This document shows, in pieces, positions 6,494 through 46,407 of a DNA stretch of 64,000 bases (within the stretch, counting starts at the first letter, position 1; the number at the start of each line of letters is the position of its first letter). Location: positions 2,728,001 through 2,792,000 of the forward strand of contig NZ_CP010976.1 in assembly GCF_000949425.1 (NCBI RefSeq). Direction: 5' to 3'. The notes under the pieces are model-generated. The model ran no database searches and had not been told where the DNA came from. It saw only the letters and a list, made by a program, of their open reading frames with translations. The translations under genes were made by a program, and so were the position numbers. The stretch is from Paenibacillus sp. IHBB 10380 (GTDB lineage Bacteria; Bacillota; Bacilli; Paenibacillales; Paenibacillaceae).

Positions 6494-12528
<6,035 letters not shown>

Positions 12529-13114: not shown

Positions 13115-16852
<3,738 letters not shown>

Positions 16853-37031: not shown

Positions 37032-37859
37032 TTATGAAATGATCTGTGCCACAAATTGAACAATTTCCAGAATAATTGGCGTACCTGAATAAATAATATC
37101 TCCATTCACATTCACATTCAGATTCAAAGTATTTTCAGTTAGAATGTATAAGCTGCTCTCTTGTAAAATCCCATTAATAGTTACATTTGAATAACTATTC
37201 AGGCCAATGCCCATAAAACTATCGCTTAAATTTCCCTCATCGTCAAAGAATTGATTAGCTTGGATGACTATGGGTGACTTAATATCGGAAGTAGCAAAAT
37301 AAAAATATCTTTGCGCACTAGGAATAATGGAGATTGCCGATATCGAACCCGGTGGCCCTGTAGGACCCGAAGGACCCGGAATACCTTGTGGACCTTGTAT
37401 CCCTGCGAAACCTTGAATGCCTTGTGGGCCCTGAGCTCCTACAGAACCCGTAACCCCAGCGATTCCCTCAGGACCTATAGGTCCTTCATTTCCTTGAGAG
37501 CCAGTAGCTCCTGCAATCCCTTGTTGACCTTGCAATCCTGCTGGACCTTGATCTCCTCTCATACCCTGACGTCCCTGAGGTCCTTGAGGTCCTTGAGGTC
37601 CTTGAGGTCCTTGAGAATTTTGAATCCTTAACCTACATCTAGGTTTAACTACTTTACAGCAGATGAGCCCACCTTTTACCATTATTTGTGATTTTGGTTT
37701 TGGTTTTGGTTTTGGTTTTGGTTTTGGTTTTTTTGAGATTCTCCTAGTACATATCTTCACGCTACTATTTGGTCGATGCTTAGGACTATCTTTAGTTTTC
37801 ACTTTATTTTTTTTTACTGTTTTTTTGTTATTGTTCTCACGACCTGCCAATTCGAACAC
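37032..37859 (-). CDS. Collagen-like DUF4183 protein
   Basis: 275 residues. The basic N-terminus has a (KP)6-type tract ([13 protein letters not shown], about residues 46-58), then an [14 protein letters not shown] segment and about 30 G-X-Y triplets of conventional type ([35 protein letters not shown]), roughly residues 83-172. The C-terminal ~95 residues ([51 protein letters not shown]) form a DUF4183 domain. DUF4183 proteins are common in sporeformers and are presumed to be spore-surface components. Its collagen region, with Q and P, is unlike the G-X-T giants to the left. It is divergent from a second DUF4183 gene at 38045. Confidence 0.87.
37691..37730. repeat. Hexanucleotide repeat (GGTTTT)n inside the coding region
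   Basis: Six or so tandem GGTTTT units on the plus strand encode the Lys-Pro tract on the minus strand. As the unit is 6 bp, slippage would change tract length without a frameshift. Confidence 0.85.
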
Positions 37860-38044
37860 CTCCTCATATCTTATTCATTCATAATATGTTGTTTAACTAT
37901 GTGGAGGATTGGACATCATCAAAATCCATATGATCTAAATAAATAAATAATAGTAGATACGCCGTTTCAAATCGTTCTTTTTCACATTAACATTGTATAA
38001 CCGAAAAATCTTATGTTTATTTATAAATGAGAGGGGGTGATCCC

Positions 38045-38455
38045 ATGCCTGTTATTAAACCGGTCTATACGGCTACATCTAATACTCCGGTTGCGACTGG
38101 AGGAGTTATTACTACCAACGTGAACCCAACCGTATCTCGTTACTTCGCAACCATAACTGCTGGAATGATAACGACAAATACAACCATTCCTGCAGCAAGC
38201 TTTGCTGACGATAACGATGCCCCTATCGTTGCTCTGCCCGCATTAACTGTAGATGACTATTACAATGTCTACATTAATGGTGTACTCCAACAAGATGCGC
38301 TATCTACGCTAACAACAGCTAGTTTAGTATTAGATACAACTGATGTTTCCGTAAATGTGCCCATTTTGCTAGAGATAGCAAACTTCGGAAATGCAGCATC
38401 AACTATAACCACTCAACCTACGATTTCTACTCCAACTATCACTATTATTACTTAA
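38045..38455 (+). CDS. DUF4183 protein
   Basis: 136 residues from ATG 38045 (MPVIKPVYTATSNTPVATGG). The sequence GAGGGGGTGAT just before it is the ribosome site, which rules out the ATG at 38027 that lies in the same stretch. The whole protein is one DUF4183 domain: SRYFATITAGMITTNTTIPA, SFADDNDAPIVALPALTVDD, YYNVYINGVLQQDALSTLTT and VPILLEIANFG. The Thr-rich tail (TITTQPTISTPTITIIT) is low complexity. It is divergently arranged with the collagen-like DUF4183 gene. A spore-surface role is inferred from the family. Confidence 0.85.
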   Translation: MPVIKPVYTATSNTPVATGGVITTNVNPTVSRYFATITAGMITTNTTIPAASFADDNDAPIVALPALTVDDYYNVYINGVLQQDALSTLTTASLVLDTTDVSVNVPILLEIANFGNAASTITTQPTISTPTITIIT

Positions 38456-38526: not shown

Positions 38527-39108
38527 CAAACGGGAGAGCACTGAAATTCGTTTACTGTTTCTGGAAATACGTTAGAGCATGCTAACGGTTATTTTTCAGG
38601 TATTTTCCTTACATACAACATAATGACTCAAATTGCGTTCCTTCCTATCTATCCAGAGGACAACCATCTTTACTCTCAATTTGATGCGTCCATACTTTTC
38701 GAGGAGGAAATGCCCCTCATCATTCCTGCTGGGCATCCCTGGGCTAGCAGAAAATTGCTATATACGAGGGATTTACACCGCGAGACGATCTTAATTCCAC
38801 AAAGTAAGTATATTTGCCAATATATCCAAAGTCAGCTCAAACTTAACCATGTCAAGGTACGTTATCTACAAATGAGTACTTTCAATATGATTAAACAGTC
38901 CATCAAGGTGGGTTTAGGTGTTTCATTCCTTCCTTATGAAGCAGTGAAAAATGAATTGGACAATGGCGAGCTAGTAACCATTCCAGTGTCTTCCCTACAA
39001 ATCAGGCGTAAAAACGGCTTTGTCATTCGCAAGAATACACAGCTTAGCGCAGAAGAACAGGCATTCTGTCACAAAGTCGAATCTTATTTCTCTTCATCCG
39101 TTAAATAG
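38527..39108 (+). pseudogene. Truncated LysR-type regulator (substrate-binding domain only)
   Basis: The frame from 38623 (MTQIAFLPIYPEDNHLYSQF) encodes the second half of a LysR effector-binding domain: LFEEEMPLIIPAGHPWASRK, YLQMSTFNMIKQSIKVGLGV, SFLPYEAVKNELDNGELVTI. The same frame continues upstream without ATG (SGNTLEHANGYFSGIF), and a further piece, TEIRLL, is in another frame. So the gene has lost its DNA-binding N-terminus and carries a frameshift. No regulatory activity is expected. Confidence 0.7.
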
Positions 39109-39120
39109 CAACATACAAGA

Positions 39121-39160
39121 AGAAACGGTTACCATCCTTAAAGGGACAGTAACCGTTTCT
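39121..39160. terminator. Hairpin after the LysR remnant
   Basis: AGAAACGGTTAC and GTAACCGTTTCT arms with a 16-base loop and no clear U-run. Confidence 0.5.
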
Positions 39161-39211
39161 CGTAGAATTATAAGCAAAATATAGTGGAAACTTAACCTTT
39201 CTTATATTTTA

Positions 39212-39266: not shown

Positions 39267-40001
39267 TTAGGAATAAGAGCATGCCTCCAGCAAAGCCTTT
39301 GTATAATCTGAATTCGGATTTTTCAATAAGGCATCTGTATATCCTTCTTCCACAATGGACCCCTCCTTCATCACGGCTACACGGTCAGCGAACCCGCTGA
39401 TCGTCTCCAGACGGTGCGTAATGTACAGAATTGACATCTTCTGTTCACGCTTCAGTGAGAGAAGCAAATCTAATATCTCTTGCTCCGTCTTTGGATCAAG
39501 TGCTGATGTAATCTCATCGGCAATAAGTAAAGTTGGTGAGAGAGTAAGTGCCCGTGCGATTGCTATGCGCTGTTTCTGCCCTCCAGAACACTCAGAGGCT
39601 CTGCGCTCCAGCAAATCCTTCGGTAGTAGAACCTTCTCCAGCATCTCTTCAACACGCGTAGAGACTGCAGAACGTGAATAATGCTTAAGAACAAGCGGCT
39701 CGGCAATAAGATCTTTTACTTTCCAATAAGGATTAAGCGATCGGTCGGGATTCTGAAATACCATTTGAATCCGTGCAGCCTGATGAGAAAGAAAGTCCCC
39801 TTCTCCTTGCCATATCACTTCTCCTTGCGTCGGTCTTTCCAAACCGACGATGATTTCTGCCAGAGTCGATTTTCCTGATCCACTCTCGCCAATCAAGGCG
39901 AATATTTCATTCTCAAGCAGTGTTAAAGTAACGTCCTTTACAGCTACAAGCTTCTTTCCCCTCTTCCCAAATTCCTTGGTCACATTCTGCACGTTCAACA
40001 T
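39267..40001 (-). CDS. ABC transporter ATPase (DppF/OppF/NikE type)
   Basis: 244 residues, a complete nucleotide-binding domain: Walker A GESGSGKST (about 37-45), Q-loop MVFQNPDRSLNPYW, signature ASECSGGQKQRIAIARALTL, Walker B LLIADEITSALDP, and H-loop YITHR. The NPDRSLNP motif is characteristic of the peptide/nickel (PepT) importer ATPases. It overlaps the upstream permease-ATPase fusion gene by 7 bp and is the last gene of the operon. It should form the heterodimeric motor with the ATPase half of that fusion. Confidence 0.92.
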   Translation of the reverse strand: MLNVQNVTKEFGKRGKKLVAVKDVTLTLLENEIFALIGESGSGKSTLAEIIVGLERPTQGEVIWQGEGDFLSHQAARIQMVFQNPDRSLNPYWKVKDLIAEPLVLKHYSRSAVSTRVEEMLEKVLLPKDLLERRASECSGGQKQRIAIARALTLSPTLLIADEITSALDPKTEQEILDLLLSLKREQKMSILYITHRLETISGFADRVAVMKEGSIVEEGYTDALLKNPNSDYTKALLEACSYS

Positions 40002-41605
40002 CCTATTTCCTCCGCTATTCTTTCTTCTGATGGCCCATTTATACCGATATCTTTCTTACTCTGAGACCAGTCTTCATTAATAGAATAATCAATCACCTTT
40101 CCATGCTGGAGTACCATGATATTATTGGCAACATGCTTAGCAGCTAACATATCATGAGTAATTAGTAGCAATGTCATTCCATGCTCCCTGACTTTAGCCA
40201 CGAGCAGCTCTAAGATTTCCCGCTTCACAATCGGATCTAGCGCCCCTGTTGGTTCGTCTGCAATCAGCACCTCAGGTTTGTTAATCAGTGCAAGTGCGAT
40301 CAAAGCCCGACTTAACATCCCGCCACTGAGTTCGTGCGGATAGCAGTCTAGTACCCTCTCGTCAAGCTGTACCTCCTGCAATCCTTGAACAGCCCGCATT
40401 TTTTTATCATGAGCTGATTGTTTCTCAGGAATAGCCTCTATAAACTGCTTACCGATCGTTAGAAGCGGATTGAAGCTAGTTCTAGGATCCTGGAATATGT
40501 AAGCCGCATCCACCCACCGTTGCATGCGTTCCTTACCTACACTGTCATATATATGCTTCCCTCCAATATAGACATCTCCCTTTACCTCACCCTCCAGCAA
40601 TAATCCGTAAATCGCTTTTGCTAGTGTTGTTTTGCCCGATCCCGACTCACCTATCAACACGGTAACACTTCCAGCAGCTACAGAGAATGACATGGGATGC
40701 ACGATCGGACGATCCCCATACGTTACACTCAGTTGATCACATACAATAGCTGCACTTGCAGTCCATATTGGCTTCGGGTCTGTCTTTATCTTATTTCTTG
40801 CTGCCTTTACTACCTTCTTATGAGAATCACTGGTTTCTCCCAATAATGCCAAGCCGACAGTAACTAATAATATTCCCACTACTGGTGGAAGTACTGTCCA
40901 CTGCCATACATTGGTCATCCAGGTTTCACCACTTCCGAACGCTTGCTGGAGCATTTTCCCCCATGAAGGAACATTCGGATCGCCGATACCGATAAATGAA
41001 AGACTTGCCTCCATGACAACAGCTTGTCTGAATGACATCACAAATTTTGTTCGCAGAAGGGGCCATATGAAAGGGAGCACATGTTTACGTAGAATATACA
41101 ACGTATTCCCTTGAAACAGTTGCGCCGATTTCACAAATTCTCGTTCCTTCAAAGACAATACCGATGCACGAATTAAGCGCATATATGCCGGCCATGTTAG
41201 CAGACCCAGTGTAAAGATCAGTTGCCATATGCCCCCACCGGTGAAAGAGGCCACAATTAGAATAAGCAGTAGTGAAGGAAGCACTAACAACATATTGGCA
41301 AACGAGTTGAGGATCAGATCGAGCTTCTTCAGGTAACCCGACAGTAAACCCAGAAAGCCGCTTAAGAACGTACTTAGTAGTGATACGAACAATCCAACAA
41401 ATAACGTTGTGCGTGCCCCATGAACAAATCCACTGAACACATCCTGTCCTAGCATGTTAGTACCTAACCAATGTTCTTTAGAAGGCGTCAAGAAACGCTC
41501 ACCACTCAGGGCAAACGGTCCATATAAAGTTACCGATGGTCCGAATATGGCTACTGCTATAAACACAGTCAGAATGGTTCCTCCTACTGCTTTGCTCCAT
41601 TTCAT
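39995..41605 (-). CDS. Fused ABC permease-ATPase (DppC + DppD type)
   Basis: 536 residues. Residues 1-265 are a DppC-like permease: TM1, then the LGTNMLGQDVFSGFVHGART block, membrane spans, and the coupling EAA-like segment near 190-215 (YILRKHVLPFIWPLLRTKFV, ASLSFIGIGDPNVPSWG). After a linker (~266-292), residues 293-536 are an ATPase: Walker A GESGSGKTT, YIFQDPRTSFNPLLTIG, signature HELSGGMLSRALIALAL, Walker B VLIADEPTGALDP, switch LLLITHD. In most relatives these are two separate proteins. The signature reads LSGGM rather than LSGGQ. It overlaps both neighbours (4 and 7 bp), consistent with translational coupling. Inner-membrane component. Confidence 0.92.
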   Translation of the reverse strand: MKWSKAVGGTILTVFIAVAIFGPSVTLYGPFALSGERFLTPSKEHWLGTNMLGQDVFSGFVHGARTTLFVGLFVSLLSTFLSGFLGLLSGYLKKLDLILNSFANMLLVLPSLLLILIVASFTGGGIWQLIFTLGLLTWPAYMRLIRASVLSLKEREFVKSAQLFQGNTLYILRKHVLPFIWPLLRTKFVMSFRQAVVMEASLSFIGIGDPNVPSWGKMLQQAFGSGETWMTNVWQWTVLPPVVGILLVTVGLALLGETSDSHKKVVKAARNKIKTDPKPIWTASAAIVCDQLSVTYGDRPIVHPMSFSVAAGSVTVLIGESGSGKTTLAKAIYGLLLEGEVKGDVYIGGKHIYDSVGKERMQRWVDAAYIFQDPRTSFNPLLTIGKQFIEAIPEKQSAHDKKMRAVQGLQEVQLDERVLDCYPHELSGGMLSRALIALALINKPEVLIADEPTGALDPIVKREILELLVAKVREHGMTLLLITHDMLAAKHVANNIMVLQHGKVIDYSINEDWSQSKKDIGINGPSEERIAEEIGC

Positions 41606-42597
41606 GACTGTCCCCCCTTATGTGCGCCACGTATGCGCGGATCAAGATGAGGATAAATGAGATCTGCTAACATATTCAAGCAAAGTATGCTCACTGTCAT
41701 CATTAGGAATAGCCCATGGAGCAAAGGATAGTCCCTTGCGAGAATAGCCTCTTGCAGTAACTTGCCAATCCCAGGATATGAGAATACCGTCTCCACAATG
41801 ACAGAACCAGACAACAGTCCACCTATTCGTATGAAGATAATAGTTACGAGCGGAAGTGCCGAATTACGAGCTACATGCCTAAGCAAGACAGCACGTTCTC
41901 CAATGCCCTTCGCAGCCGCGAATTCAATAAATGGCTCTTGAAACACTCGAATGGCTTCATTACGCATTAATAGGTATAGACCTGCAAGACTACCCACCGT
42001 TAGTGTAGCGATGGGTAGCAAAGCATGCTTGGCTACATCTAATATACGATCAAGTCCATTCTCTGACGAAAGGAACGCTGTCTCTGCCCCACTGAGGGGG
42101 AGTAAACCTCCATTTACAGAGAATACGATGAGTAGAATCATTCCGATCAAGAACTCTGGGACTGCGCTGAGTACCATCATAACGATAAAAATCAGGCGAT
42201 CAATACGTCTAGGATGCTTCCACGCTGATAATAGTCCCAGAGCCAATCCAATAATAATGGAAAGAAGAGTGGATATACCCACAATAAGCAACGTCCAAGG
42301 CAATCGGATCGAAATAACGTCATAGACTGGAGATTTATAAGTAAACGACAATCCAAAATCAAACGTGAACAATCCCTTCAAATACTGTGTGAATTGTACC
42401 CATAACGTGTCGTTCAGATGATAATACTGGAGCAACGCCTGCTTTTGAACTTCAGAAACAAATACCGCTCCTTGTTTTCCACCACCGATGAGGAAATCGA
42501 CGGGGCCACCTGGCAAAATCCGTGGGAGCCAAAAGTTGAGTAACACGACGAATATCAAAACACTAACATACGTAACTGCCTGTCTAATTATCCTCAT
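41602..42597 (-). CDS. ABC transporter permease (DppB/NikB type)
   Basis: 331 residues with about six membrane spans. The N-terminus is RIIRQAVTYVSVLIFVVLLN followed by FWLPRILPGGPVDFLIGG (the PGGP-D motif of DppB-type permeases). The coupling loop is FIEFAAAKGIGERAVLLRHV, and the VETVFSYPGIGKLLQEAILA and RDYPLLHG blocks are diagnostic. It starts 14 bp inside the end of the solute-binding protein gene. It pairs with the permease half of the downstream fusion to form the channel. Confidence 0.93.
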   Translation of the reverse strand: MRIIRQAVTYVSVLIFVVLLNFWLPRILPGGPVDFLIGGGKQGAVFVSEVQKQALLQYYHLNDTLWVQFTQYLKGLFTFDFGLSFTYKSPVYDVISIRLPWTLLIVGISTLLSIIIGLALGLLSAWKHPRRIDRLIFIVMMVLSAVPEFLIGMILLIVFSVNGGLLPLSGAETAFLSSENGLDRILDVAKHALLPIATLTVGSLAGLYLLMRNEAIRVFQEPFIEFAAAKGIGERAVLLRHVARNSALPLVTIIFIRIGGLLSGSVIVETVFSYPGIGKLLQEAILARDYPLLHGLFLMMTVSILCLNMLADLIYPHLDPRIRGAHKGGQS

Positions 42598-44227
42598 CGA
42601 TCAGCGCTGCCTTGTTATCCCATAGTGGAATTCCATCTGCTATACCACCCGCTGTATTGAACCACCCATTGAAGTCACTTGATTTAAACAAGTAATAGAA
42701 TGGACGATGATAAAGAACGAGAGTAGGCAGTTCCTCTGCCAGGATGTTCTGCATTTCTCCAACCATTTCTTTCCGCTTATCTTCATCTAATTCTGACATC
42801 TGCTCGATTGCTAGCTGCTGGAACTCGGCATTATCAAACTGCTTCTCTCTTGCTGCCCAAGTATTGCTTGCCTCACCAAGGAACCATAACCGCAAATAAT
42901 CAGGATCTCCACTTAATCCAATATGCCCGGTGATGGCCATATCATATTTATTCTCTCCCATAGCTGTAGTGAACGTTGCCGAATCTATTTGCTGAATATT
43001 CAGTACAATGCCTACCTTCTTAAGCATTTCCTGCATCACCTGTGCCTCCGGTGAATTGGAAGATACCATTACATTCAGCTTCAACCCATCGCGTTCTCCA
43101 TTGGCATTCTTGGCATATCCAAGCTCATCAAGAATACGCTCTGCTTCCGTAATATTATATTCATATTGTTTCACAGAAGAGTTATACCATGGTGAATCAG
43201 GAGGAATGATACCAGCGTTTCCAACTATTGGATCGCCTCCGCTAATCTTCCGTGCCATTTCAGCGCGATCGAGCGCATAAGCCATTGCCTGACGCAGACG
43301 CTTATCCTTCAATTGAGGATGATCTAGATTAAACGTTAAACGTAACGCACTGCCGGTCGGTGCGCTCTTGATTACATCAAATCCCTCTTTCTGTAATTGT
43401 TGAACCTCAGAATAATTGGTCAACATAGCTGTGTCTATTTCTCCTTTTTGCAATGCAAGTATCTTATTCTCAGGGTTTAAGTACGCCACTTCCTTCACCA
43501 GTACTTTTCCTTTGAAATAATGATCATTTGCATTGAACAAATATTGTCCAGACTTCTCATCATACTGCTTCAGTGTGTAGGGACCTGTACCGACAAGAGC
43601 CGAAGGATCGCGGAAATCTAACGGACTTTCCACATTTGTCCACACGTGCTTAGGAATGATAGGCACGATACCTACCAAATCGCTCAAAAAGGGTGCATAA
43701 CCATTATTCAATGTGAATTGAACTTTATGATCATCGATAGCCGTTACAGATTGGATCTGACTGATGTCACCTGTCCACATAAAGGGATGTATTTGATAAT
43801 ATTCAAAGCTGAATACGACATCATCCGCTGTGAGCGAATTACCGTCATGCCATAGGACATTCTCCTCCAATTCAAATGTATATTGAAGGCCATCTTCCGA
43901 AATACTCCATGATTTCGCTAGCCATGGAATAACTCCATTCTCATCCTTCCAAGTTAACGTATCGAATAGGAAGGAGTTACGTAGGAAGCCACCAGGTCCT
44001 GATGAACTAAAGGCAAAGGGGGAAGGATAGCCACTGTTACCCCAAGACATACGCAGCCGGGAAATGGGATCAGAAGTTGCCGATGTATCCTTGATTGTAT
44101 CCGCTGTTGTAGTTACTTCGGTTGTAACTTGTTGAACCTCAGAGGTCTTGCCATTCGACGAACACCCCGTGACGATTGCTACTATACAGAACAAGATCAA
44201 CAGGCTGAATTTATTACGATTTATCAT
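42584..44227 (-). CDS. Solute-binding lipoprotein (SBP_bac_5 family)
   Basis: 547 residues from ATG 44227 (AAGGAG eight bases upstream; the in-frame GTG at 44236 is too close to that site). The signal MINRNKFSLLILFCIVAIVT has lipobox VTG-C22. Mature-protein motifs of the peptide/nickel/opine binding family are clear: KSWSISEDGLQYTFELEENV, WHDGNSLTADDVVFSFEYY, GTGPYTLKQYD, and LKDKRLRQAMAYALDRAEMA. The protein is anchored outside the cell and delivers ligand to the permeases. The ligand cannot be read from sequence. The operon's Fur box and the three unusual genes ahead of it suggest a metal complex or metallophore. Confidence 0.92.
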   Translation of the reverse strand: MINRNKFSLLILFCIVAIVTGCSSNGKTSEVQQVTTEVTTTADTIKDTSATSDPISRLRMSWGNSGYPSPFAFSSSGPGGFLRNSFLFDTLTWKDENGVIPWLAKSWSISEDGLQYTFELEENVLWHDGNSLTADDVVFSFEYYQIHPFMWTGDISQIQSVTAIDDHKVQFTLNNGYAPFLSDLVGIVPIIPKHVWTNVESPLDFRDPSALVGTGPYTLKQYDEKSGQYLFNANDHYFKGKVLVKEVAYLNPENKILALQKGEIDTAMLTNYSEVQQLQKEGFDVIKSAPTGSALRLTFNLDHPQLKDKRLRQAMAYALDRAEMARKISGGDPIVGNAGIIPPDSPWYNSSVKQYEYNITEAERILDELGYAKNANGERDGLKLNVMVSSNSPEAQVMQEMLKKVGIVLNIQQIDSATFTTAMGENKYDMAITGHIGLSGDPDYLRLWFLGEASNTWAAREKQFDNAEFQQLAIEQMSELDEDKRKEMVGEMQNILAEELPTLVLYHRPFYYLFKSSDFNGWFNTAGGIADGIPLWDNKAALIDEDN

Positions 44228-44287
44228 GATGTCCACTCCTTGAATTTGTTATCTGTCTATTAAGATCACTATTGATATTGCTAATTC

Positions 44288-44893
44288 TTATAGTTTCCCT
44301 TCTGCAAGCCACGGAAAAAAACCATCTAGAAACCGCTCCGTTGCAGGCATGAAATAAGATCCATAATGATACTCGGGATCTAATGTCGTCATAATAAATG
44401 TACCCGCCGTACTCACTTTATCCACATACATAATGGCACCGCCATCTTCGACACTGATAATAATATCTGATCCTGCGGGAGGGAAGAACACACCATGATA
44501 ATGCCAAGTGGCATCCTTAATTGTTAGATAACGAAAAAAGTCATGGTCGGGTCGTTCTGCAACTAGTCCACTTCGCGTACTAGATTCCAGCCACCACCAA
44601 AAATTGGTTGGTCTAATTTCCCAATTATGCCCGGGAAGCCATGGGTTCGGTTGAGCTCCTAAAGCAGTCACAATGCCCCCTCGGTTAATAAAGGCATCAA
44701 TGATATGTTGTGATTCACTTACGAGAGACTTGTGAAGCTGTGACGGAATGAGTAGAACATCGATATCATCGAGAGACGTATATTGAAGTTCAGGCAAATA
44801 AATAATATGATGAATATAGCGATGATACTTAGGCTCATAAAGCGTACGAAACTGATGAGAATTCCCTCCGTATAGAACAGCAATCTTTCTCAT
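44288..44893 (-). CDS. ThuA/glutamine-amidotransferase-like protein, paralogue 2
   Basis: 201 residues. It opens with a beta-strand and alpha/beta pattern (MRKIAVLYGGNSHQF, LDDIDVLLIPSQLHKSLVSE, IIDAFINRGGIVTALGAQPN) like ThuA or class I amidotransferase-like folds, but no Cys-His-Glu triad is apparent. Its second half (WHYHGVFFPPAGSDIIISVE, AIMYVDKVSTAGTFIMTTLD, FLDGFFPWLAEG) parallels the neighbouring 214-residue protein (ITYIDRHSTEGTILVHSGNN, LQNWIGEE), so the two are tandem paralogues. ATGA overlap with the upstream gene. A non-catalytic binding or cofactor-handling role is guesswork. I do not recognise a named family. Confidence 0.75.
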   Translation of the reverse strand: MRKIAVLYGGNSHQFRTLYEPKYHRYIHHIIYLPELQYTSLDDIDVLLIPSQLHKSLVSESQHIIDAFINRGGIVTALGAQPNPWLPGHNWEIRPTNFWWWLESSTRSGLVAERPDHDFFRYLTIKDATWHYHGVFFPPAGSDIIISVEDGGAIMYVDKVSTAGTFIMTTLDPEYHYGSYFMPATERFLDGFFPWLAEGKL

Positions 44894-45534
44894 ATCGGTC
44901 TTTTCCCCTCTTGAATATTCCTATATTCCTCGCCAATCCAATTCTGTAACTGGCTGCCGATTCGACCCACTGTGTTGCTTGGGTTCCTATATGCAAATAG
45001 GTTATTTCCAGAATGGACAAGAATCGTCCCCTCAGTGCTGTGTCTATCAATATAGGTGATTGGTTCTCCTCCAGGTAATGTCAACAACACTTCGGCATGT
45101 GGCGGAAGAGGATGATGTCCTCTTGCAAAAAAACCTGAAACACCCTTCGTATAGGTCATATCTTCAGGCTTTACGCTGTCAAATATCGGATGAGGTTGTG
45201 CAATCGACACTTCATAATCACGATGACTATGAATCTGCTTAGGTACGAATATCGAAGCCCCTGGAAGCCAAGGAAGAAATAAATGTCCACTAAAGATTAG
45301 TACTTTCCCCTGATTCAGGAATTTCCATATCCGTTCACTCTCACGATACAGCAGCTCCTGATCGACATAGCTATCGATAACCAGACAAGCATATGACGAC
45401 AAATCGAATTCCGGCAGATCGTAGAGATCCAGTACGAAGCAATCATCCTGTCGCTTAGCATCTTGAACCATCTGTTCACTGAAATAACACCCTGAATCTA
45501 AAATGACAACATTAGCTGTCCCACGTGCAGTCAT
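44890..45534 (-). CDS. ThuA/glutamine-amidotransferase-like protein, paralogue 1
   Basis: 214 residues, cytoplasmic. VVILDSGCYFSEQMVQDAKR, SSYACLVIDSYVDQELLYRE and FLNQGKVLIFSGHLFLPWLP show the alternating strands and helices of a ThuA/GATase-like Rossmann-type fold; HPIFDSVKPEDM is reminiscent of ThuA-type domains. The Cys in DSGCYF is at the N-terminus and not at a nucleophile-elbow position. It is related to the following 201-residue protein. It overlaps both neighbours by 4 bp, so all three first genes of the operon should be made in fixed ratio. Exact function unknown. Confidence 0.72.
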   Translation of the reverse strand: MTARGTANVVILDSGCYFSEQMVQDAKRQDDCFVLDLYDLPEFDLSSYACLVIDSYVDQELLYRESERIWKFLNQGKVLIFSGHLFLPWLPGASIFVPKQIHSHRDYEVSIAQPHPIFDSVKPEDMTYTKGVSGFFARGHHPLPPHAEVLLTLPGGEPITYIDRHSTEGTILVHSGNNLFAYRNPSNTVGRIGSQLQNWIGEEYRNIQEGKRPI

Positions 45535-46055
45535 TGTATCCTCCGTGTCGTGAAGAGCTCTCCAAGTGGGGTAACCAATGCTCGCTCGGCTAATGCCCGC
45601 TTAAGTTTACCAAATGTAGCGACATCTGCCTCTGTCATTGTCTCTTCCCGTCCCTTCTTCAAATAATCATAAAACGTCATAGGCAGGAAGTTCTCATTCA
45701 GAACGATCTCGACGGAGGCTCCTGTCTCCGAGGTAATCACAAACGCGTAGCCTTGAGGTCGGTATGGATCATACTGTCCTGCTGGATAGGCTGTATCTAC
45801 CTGATATGCACCACGAGTAACCGCGCGTGTCACGAATTCGAATGCATCACGAAAACCTGGTCCCCCATGCCCAGAACATATCGAGATAGCTCCACGCTCA
45901 GGAATCTCGTCACCGAATAATTCTTTGAAGGCTGCCTGTAAGCTACGATAACCTACGGCGACAGCCATAAGCGCAATTCCTCCATGATACTTACAGATAT
46001 CTGAAAATCCGATTTCTAAAATATCTTGTCTATCTCTTATATGTATTACTGACAT
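45531..46055 (-). CDS. FmdE-like protein, first gene of the Fur-box operon
   Basis: 174 residues. ICKYHGGIALMAVAVGYRSL followed by ISICSGHGGPGFRDAFEFVT resembles the FmdE domain (normally GHxCPG...GYR...), first named from the molybdenum formylmethanofuran dehydrogenase operon and often found beside metal transport genes. The usual first HxC metal motif is altered to YHGG; Cys and His remain in ICSGHGG. The FAFVITSETGASVEIVLNEN part forms a beta-rich middle. It probably binds a metal or cofactor (inference). The family assignment is from motif recall. Promoter and Fur box lie 56-84 bp upstream. Confidence 0.65.
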   Translation of the reverse strand: MSVIHIRDRQDILEIGFSDICKYHGGIALMAVAVGYRSLQAAFKELFGDEIPERGAISICSGHGGPGFRDAFEFVTRAVTRGAYQVDTAYPAGQYDPYRPQGYAFVITSETGASVEIVLNENFLPMTFYDYLKKGREETMTEADVATFGKLKRALAERALVTPLGELFTTRRIQ

Positions 46056-46110
46056 TTCTACTTACACTCCCTTTGTTGTTATGGTCAGCTGTTGATGCTG
46101 TTAAGATCAT

Positions 46111-46139
46111 ATACTAGCTTATATGATAATGATTATCAA
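46111..46139 (-). promoter_or_regulatory. SigA-type promoter overlapping Fur box
   Basis: On the minus strand TTGATA (46134-46139), 17-bp spacer, TAGTAT (46111-46116). The -35 hexamer is inside the Fur box, so Fur binding would block transcription. Confidence 0.65.
46124..46138. promoter_or_regulatory. Fur box, perfect 7-1-7 palindrome
   Basis: TGATAATGATTATCA is identical to the Bacillus subtilis Fur core consensus (TGATAATnATTATCA). The PerR and Zur consensus differ at several of these positions. It predicts repression of the FmdE-like/ABC operon when iron is replete. Confidence 0.85.
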
Positions 46140-46240
46140 TATCACACAAACTAGTATATGACAAAAATAACCTACCATCAAGCCTTTAGGCTGGATTATT
46201 AAAAATTTTGAATATTTCAAAAAAAATTCCTTCAACACGA

Positions 46241-46349: not shown

Positions 46350-46407
46350 ATCCCCTCCAAGTAAACTGTAGTGCGCTTTTTTTACACACTGTCTACTTAA
46401 AGGGGAT
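46350..46407 (-). terminator. Terminator of the chemoreceptor gene, built from an inverted repeat
   Basis: ATCCCCTTTAAGTAGACAGT on the minus strand pairs, with a few mismatches, with CTACAGTTTACTTGGAGGGGAT and is followed by TTTTTATA. The arms resemble the IS-end-like sequence at 46241-46282. Confidence 0.65.

Follow-up and report, generated by a model that had tools for sequence, protein, structure and literature searches.

The closest described relatives of the locus analyzed here are opine-metallophore (staphylopine/bacillopaline, Cnt) uptake systems, the NikABCDE importer, and the FecBCD/FhuBCD-type ferric siderophore importers. FecCD/Peripla_BP_2 importers are chelate transporters, and the peptide/nickel/opine class covers binding proteins for peptides, sugars, opines, and metals. 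Opine-zincophore clusters use importers of both the peptide and FecCD types, with some actinobacteria using both (PMC7438024). Within the window (the whole 64,000-nucleotide stretch of Paenibacillus sp. IHBB 10380 DNA that we analyzed), the list of ORFs revealed a minus-strand operon of seven genes running from 46055 to 39267 in the order FmdE-like, ThuA-like A, ThuA-like B, binding lipoprotein, permease, permease–ATPase fusion, and ATPase (Table 1). The initial annotation had described all seven genes as tightly overlapping, a slight overstatement: overlaps of 4–14 bases join the genes at five of the six junctions, but a 51-base gap separates ThuA-like B from the binding protein. No description of this gene set was found in the open-licence literature searched, and the main text of a Haloferax iron paper (PMC11349517) contains neither "ThuA" nor "FmdE."

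Table 1. Positions of the operon's genes and of the adjoining regulatory and flanking features in the window.
Feature	Position	Strand	Length	Remarks
FmdE-like protein, predicted cytosolic	45531..46055	-	174 aa	
ThuA-like protein A	44890..45534	-	214 aa	GATase1-like fold; signature GFFARGHHP
ThuA-like protein B	44288..44893	-	201 aa	Paralogue and probable partner of A; signature RPTNFWWWL / TWHYHG / FMPATERFL
Extracellular binding lipoprotein, SBP_bac_5 (peptide/nickel/opine class)	42584..44236	-	550 aa	Lipobox seen by eye
Permease, Opp2B/NikB-like	41602..42597	-	331 aa	
Second permease fused to first ATPase (Opp/NikC-NikD-like)	39995..41605	-	536 aa	
Second ATPase, OppF/NikE-like	39267..40001	-	244 aa	
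Terminator-like hairpin	39120..39161	-	18 pairs	Directly downstream of operon
LysR-type regulator remnant	38593..39108	+		Effector-binding part only; DNA-binding domain absent
Fur box, perfect 7-1-7	46124..46138	-		TGATAATGATTATCA
Element of perfect Fur box plus second overlapping copy (2 mismatches)	46124..46144	-	21 bases	TGATATTGATAATCATTATCA
Sigma-70-type promoter	46111..46139	-		-35 TTGATA (46139-46134); 17-base spacer; -10 TAGTAT (46116-46111)

Pfam bore out the importer class assigned earlier (dipeptide/nickel/opine), finding SBP_bac_5, two BPD permease domains, and two ATPase domains, with the second permease and first ATPase in one chain. The architecture is that of NikABCDE, and the best NCBIfam match for three of the four importer proteins was a nickel-transporter model, all of them under the cut-off. 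In contrast to NikABCDE, scores fell below each Nik equivalog cut-off (NikA, 163.5/393; NikB, 183.2/447; NikC, 149.4/358.45; NikD, 194.2/318.7; NikE, 190.9/332.55), a permease and an ATPase are fused, and the operon has a Fur box and partner genes. Likeness to Cnt uptake lies in the peptide/nickel-type importer, in apparent metal regulation, and in the replacement or doubling of that importer by a FecCD importer in some lineages (PMC7438024). Unlike Cnt systems, this operon carries a Fur box plus an extra ThuA-like pair and FmdE-like protein, and its binding protein scored far under the CntA cut-off (145.7 vs. 800 bits). A lack of metallophore synthesis genes had also been noted, and this holds for the two families that we searched for: the opine-metallophore dehydrogenase (PF10100, CntM-type) was absent from the window's own genome, with the same search positive in 55 of 197 family genomes, and IucA/IucC was absent with its controls positive. 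A link to opine-metallophore synthesis was rejected (PF10100 in 5 of 16 ThuA-positive genomes vs. 4.5 expected). Judged from sequence, the operon would work like a metallophore uptake system, yet it fails the Nik and Cnt family tests.

The ThuA-like proteins had been described as paralogous and triad-less. They are indeed paralogous, with 27% identity over 144 residues (E 3e-7), and the fold test placed both in the ThuA-like GATase1 superfamily. As to Cys, the second description also stands: the amidotransferase catalytic Cys was not found, no Cys is invariant in either family (a shared Cys column reaches at most 10 of 21 rows in family A and 5 of 26 in family B), and protein B of the window contains no Cys. 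Compared with known ThuA-like or class I glutamine-amidotransferase-like proteins (1t0b, 2gk3, 3rht), the pair is without a supported Pfam match, has its own signatures, and nearly always occurs as two. Pfam and NCBIfam names for these proteins were accordingly rejected, and searches for sequence relatives of solved structure gave no meaningful match for them or for the FmdE-like protein. The shared GATase-like fold alone says nothing of chemistry. None of the three proteins carries a signal peptide by eye. Relatives of ThuA-like A are named "phosphate starvation-inducible protein PhoH" in many public records, apparently a propagated misannotation.

The FmdE-like protein scored 18.6 bits against FmdE (PF02663), below the Pfam gathering score of 22.9 bits, although a few of its close relatives do carry the precomputed Pfam label. 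It nevertheless shares the FmdE fold; the resemblance is real though subthreshold. The HGHxC / TDxCGVD / GCT.GK motif, taken from eight canonical FmdE members, is not kept by the family: the canonical cysteines and second histidine are replaced in the window's protein, and no alignment column at the motif has Cys in most rows. The first motif His (His24) is retained in 91 of 91 sequences, and H63, D70, and E73 are near-invariant. The altered metal motif proposed for this protein was thereby confirmed.

Screening 84,980 species genomes with a ThuA-like A profile (two peptide patterns) returned at least 54 loci, which span Bacillota, Actinomycetota, one Deltaproteobacterium (MAG), and one haloarchaeon (Halopenitus) and include the genera Paenibacillus, Brevibacillus, Cohnella, Psychrobacillus, Lysinibacillus, Kurthia, Pseudonocardia, Rhodococcus, and Rubrobacter. 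The gene cluster thus occurs among soil bacteria and in some archaea. The ThuA-like pair or an A–B fusion was present in 51 of the 54 (B is missing in L032, L033, and L035; in L002, ThuA-like A was missed by the ORF picker and placed by tblastn at 10001-10615). Because A and B are fused in many genomes (16 loci, the A half first and the B half second in 16 of 16), they probably form a heterodimer. An SBP_bac_5 gene occurred in 39 loci and an FmdE-like gene in 24; the latter was out of reach in the other 30, and FmdE is thus not part of every system. The binding proteins form two groups: one, found in 14 loci of which 13 have FmdE, is close to the window's, and the other, in 25 loci, is distant. 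Separation of the first three genes from the transporter had been set beforehand as the refuting test of the initial annotation; co-occurrence was found, although FmdE is missing in those 30 loci. Among 197 family genomes (the window's included), 13 had the FmdE-like gene, 16 had ThuA-like A, and 12 had both (1.06 expected; Fisher p 4.6e-15). In 17 regions from the family genomes, several on contigs that repeat the 54-locus set, 15 of 15 with a ThuA-like A gene also had the importer. Of the remaining two, L071 yielded no more than an incomplete ThuA-like match plus a relative of the ATPase, and in L072 just a remnant of FmdE was seen. The distribution is patchy, with FmdE in 2 of 100 same-genus genomes, one being the window's own. 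Partner distances were correlated (r 0.71–0.90, 12 loci), which may stem from species descent alone.

SBP_bac_5 was absent in 15 of the 54 loci, 7 of which have the FecCD type, while L043 and L047 keep other importer genes; in L011 and L012, a Fur box precedes the ThuA-like pair but the vicinity contains no importer. The seven loci in which Peripla_BP_2, FecCD, and an ATPase stand beside the pair (L023, L026, L027, L029, L030, L031, and L047) connect it with FecBCD/FhuBCD-type importers, an ABC class other than that of the window's importer. The pair, therefore, probably follows the cargo and not the pump, as the same alternation of importers in opine-zincophore clusters also suggests (PMC7438024). 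In Rhodococcus L047, the two kinds of importer occur together, along with three additional ThuA-like genes and two that are FmdE-like. We scanned one representative of each of the 19 neighbour families recurring in at least three loci with Pfam; four had no match, and none was a metallophore-synthesis family.

At the promoter, we recovered the perfect 7-1-7 Fur box reported over the -35 hexamer: it overlies most of TTGATA plus spacer, as expected for a member of the Fur regulon, and it is the sole perfect match within the window. The 21-base element containing it is near-identical across the window and nine aligned relatives. For these and the DtxR/IdeR scans, we used consensus strings that we take from general knowledge. 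Fur matches with up to three mismatches numbered 12 in the window vs. 6.9 expected (12 was reached in 3 of 100 shuffles), and the whole genome holds 51 sites within one mismatch vs. 7 for a reversed control pattern. Promoter-like matches are common in the window (27 found vs. 17 expected), and the weight of the operon promoter thus rests on conservation. The Fur box is also central in a longer 27-base imperfect palindrome (46107-46161, 85%) with outer arms TCATATACTAG/CTAGTATATGA; this palindrome is not evident among the relatives aligned at the promoter.

Boxes of this kind recur at the relatives. Of 36 Bacillota loci, 31 have a Fur box within one mismatch close to where a core gene starts, and the remaining five (L019, L021, L022, L023, and L025) have two-mismatch sites. 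Leaders of the Bacillota loci hold 34 Fur sites (1.20 per kb) vs. 21 elsewhere (0.031 per kb), some of the latter preceding a LysR gene. Outside Bacillota, 18 loci gave 8 DtxR/IdeR-like sites (up to five mismatches from the consensus) vs. 0.75 in a null model of single-base shuffling inside 200-base blocks. Seven of the eight lie upstream of sbp or thuA in six loci (L036, L038, L044, L045, L051 with two, and L052), and the eighth (L043) is located elsewhere; the other 12 of the 18 loci have no such box upstream of either gene. Read from these motifs, a predicted iron link is conserved through two unrelated regulators, Fur in Bacillota and a DtxR/IdeR-like one in some other lineages, and the operon is apparently switched by iron sensors.

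The LysR remnant beside the operon matches residues 149-307 of the intact L001 relative with 79–81% identity; the next best LysR in the window's genome is only 30% identical. In 20 of the 54 loci, a member of this LysR-type family adjoins the cluster, and a separate Fur box often accompanies it. Relative to the Fur box, the best match to a LysR-site-like dyad falls 59-62 or 80-82 bases upstream in 17 of 23 LysR-positive vs. 1 of 13 LysR-negative promoters (the one being L013, on a short contig), with distance windows picked after seeing the data and related loci that are not independent; only 7 of 37 promoters have a dyad match that outdoes shuffles (at most 5%).

We consider it likely, with moderate confidence, that iron starvation induces the operon and that its products let the cell use an iron chelate not of its own making, through uptake followed by processing or release of the iron in the cytosol. 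Under iron shortage, Fur would leave the promoter and the operon would be read; the lipoprotein would capture the chelate, and the two-permease, two-ATPase pump would bring it in. The ThuA-like pair and the FmdE-like protein would take it over in the cytosol, releasing iron and/or breaking down or remodeling the ligand. In relatives, the LysR-type protein would provide a further level of switching, probably as a sensor of the cargo or a product, and its decay in the window's genome would leave Fur alone. More tentatively, and at odds we would put somewhat short of even, these accessory proteins may be a new class of cytosolic iron-chelate-processing complex, common to two unrelated ABC importer families and to bacteria and archaea, whose target is a widespread chelate that bacteria are not yet known to use for iron. 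If so, an iron-acquisition route that recurs has escaped notice, partly because its accessory genes are labelled PhoH, FmdE, or hypothetical; it would become clear how a chelate brought in by either ABC class is opened in the cytosol, and defined proteins would be available for fishing out the ligand.

The breadth of the importer class, which takes in peptide, sugar, and opine as well as metal binding proteins, also speaks for a rival reading, in which the cargo is a peptide-, opine-, or sugar-like organic nutrient whose use spares iron-dependent metabolism or takes its place, the ThuA-like pair and the FmdE-like protein are catabolic enzymes, and iron control is indirect. A LysR regulator fits a catabolic operon, and sugar enzymes are among the proteins with a domain of the GATase-like fold. 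Chelate importers of the FecCD/Peripla_BP_2 type, however, accompany the same partners, and the neighbour families include no catabolic enzyme that accompanies the trio from lineage to lineage, leaving this explanation unlikely. We give slightly less credence to an importer of another metal complex (nickel, zinc, or cobalt) placed under iron control, with the FmdE-like protein as metal carrier. The subthreshold nickel-model matches and the P-type ATPase gene near the operon in L005 and L007 speak for it, but the boxes are of the iron-regulator type in two lineages and the canonical FmdE cysteines are lost. Import of heme or another tetrapyrrole, with the trio acting in iron removal, is very improbable: the PDB has SBP_bac_5 entries that carry the name heme-binding protein A, but no heme-related family is among the 19 recurrent neighbour families (one representative each).

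Several loci and the window showed further features. In L005 (16597-19650) and also L007, genes for the P-type ATPase and a pyridine-nucleotide-disulphide-type flavin reductase adjoin the operon behind a two-mismatch Fur site; a ferric chelate could be the substrate of such a reductase. Another form of the cluster (L003, L006, L010, L015, L016, L022, L024, L025, L034, L035, L037, L040, and L042) has in addition a small ATPase, an FtsX-like permease whose FtsX domain Pfam supports, and secreted proteins without a family; judged by eye, the mature forms of the latter would start with His (AHLTGAF..., AHI...). Three Lysinibacillus loci share a pyruvate-dehydrogenase set, which has the look of a common neighbour. 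Upstream of the operon, a 20-base inverted repeat (46350-46407, 80%) may terminate the adjacent chemotaxis-like gene or may have been left by a mobile element. Elsewhere in the window, a collagen-like protein with GPQ-type repeats (37032-37859) adjoins a Thr-rich protein (38027-38455), and two very long ORFs (6494-11827 and 13115-16831) have long open antisense frames, which suggests repetitive or biased sequence.
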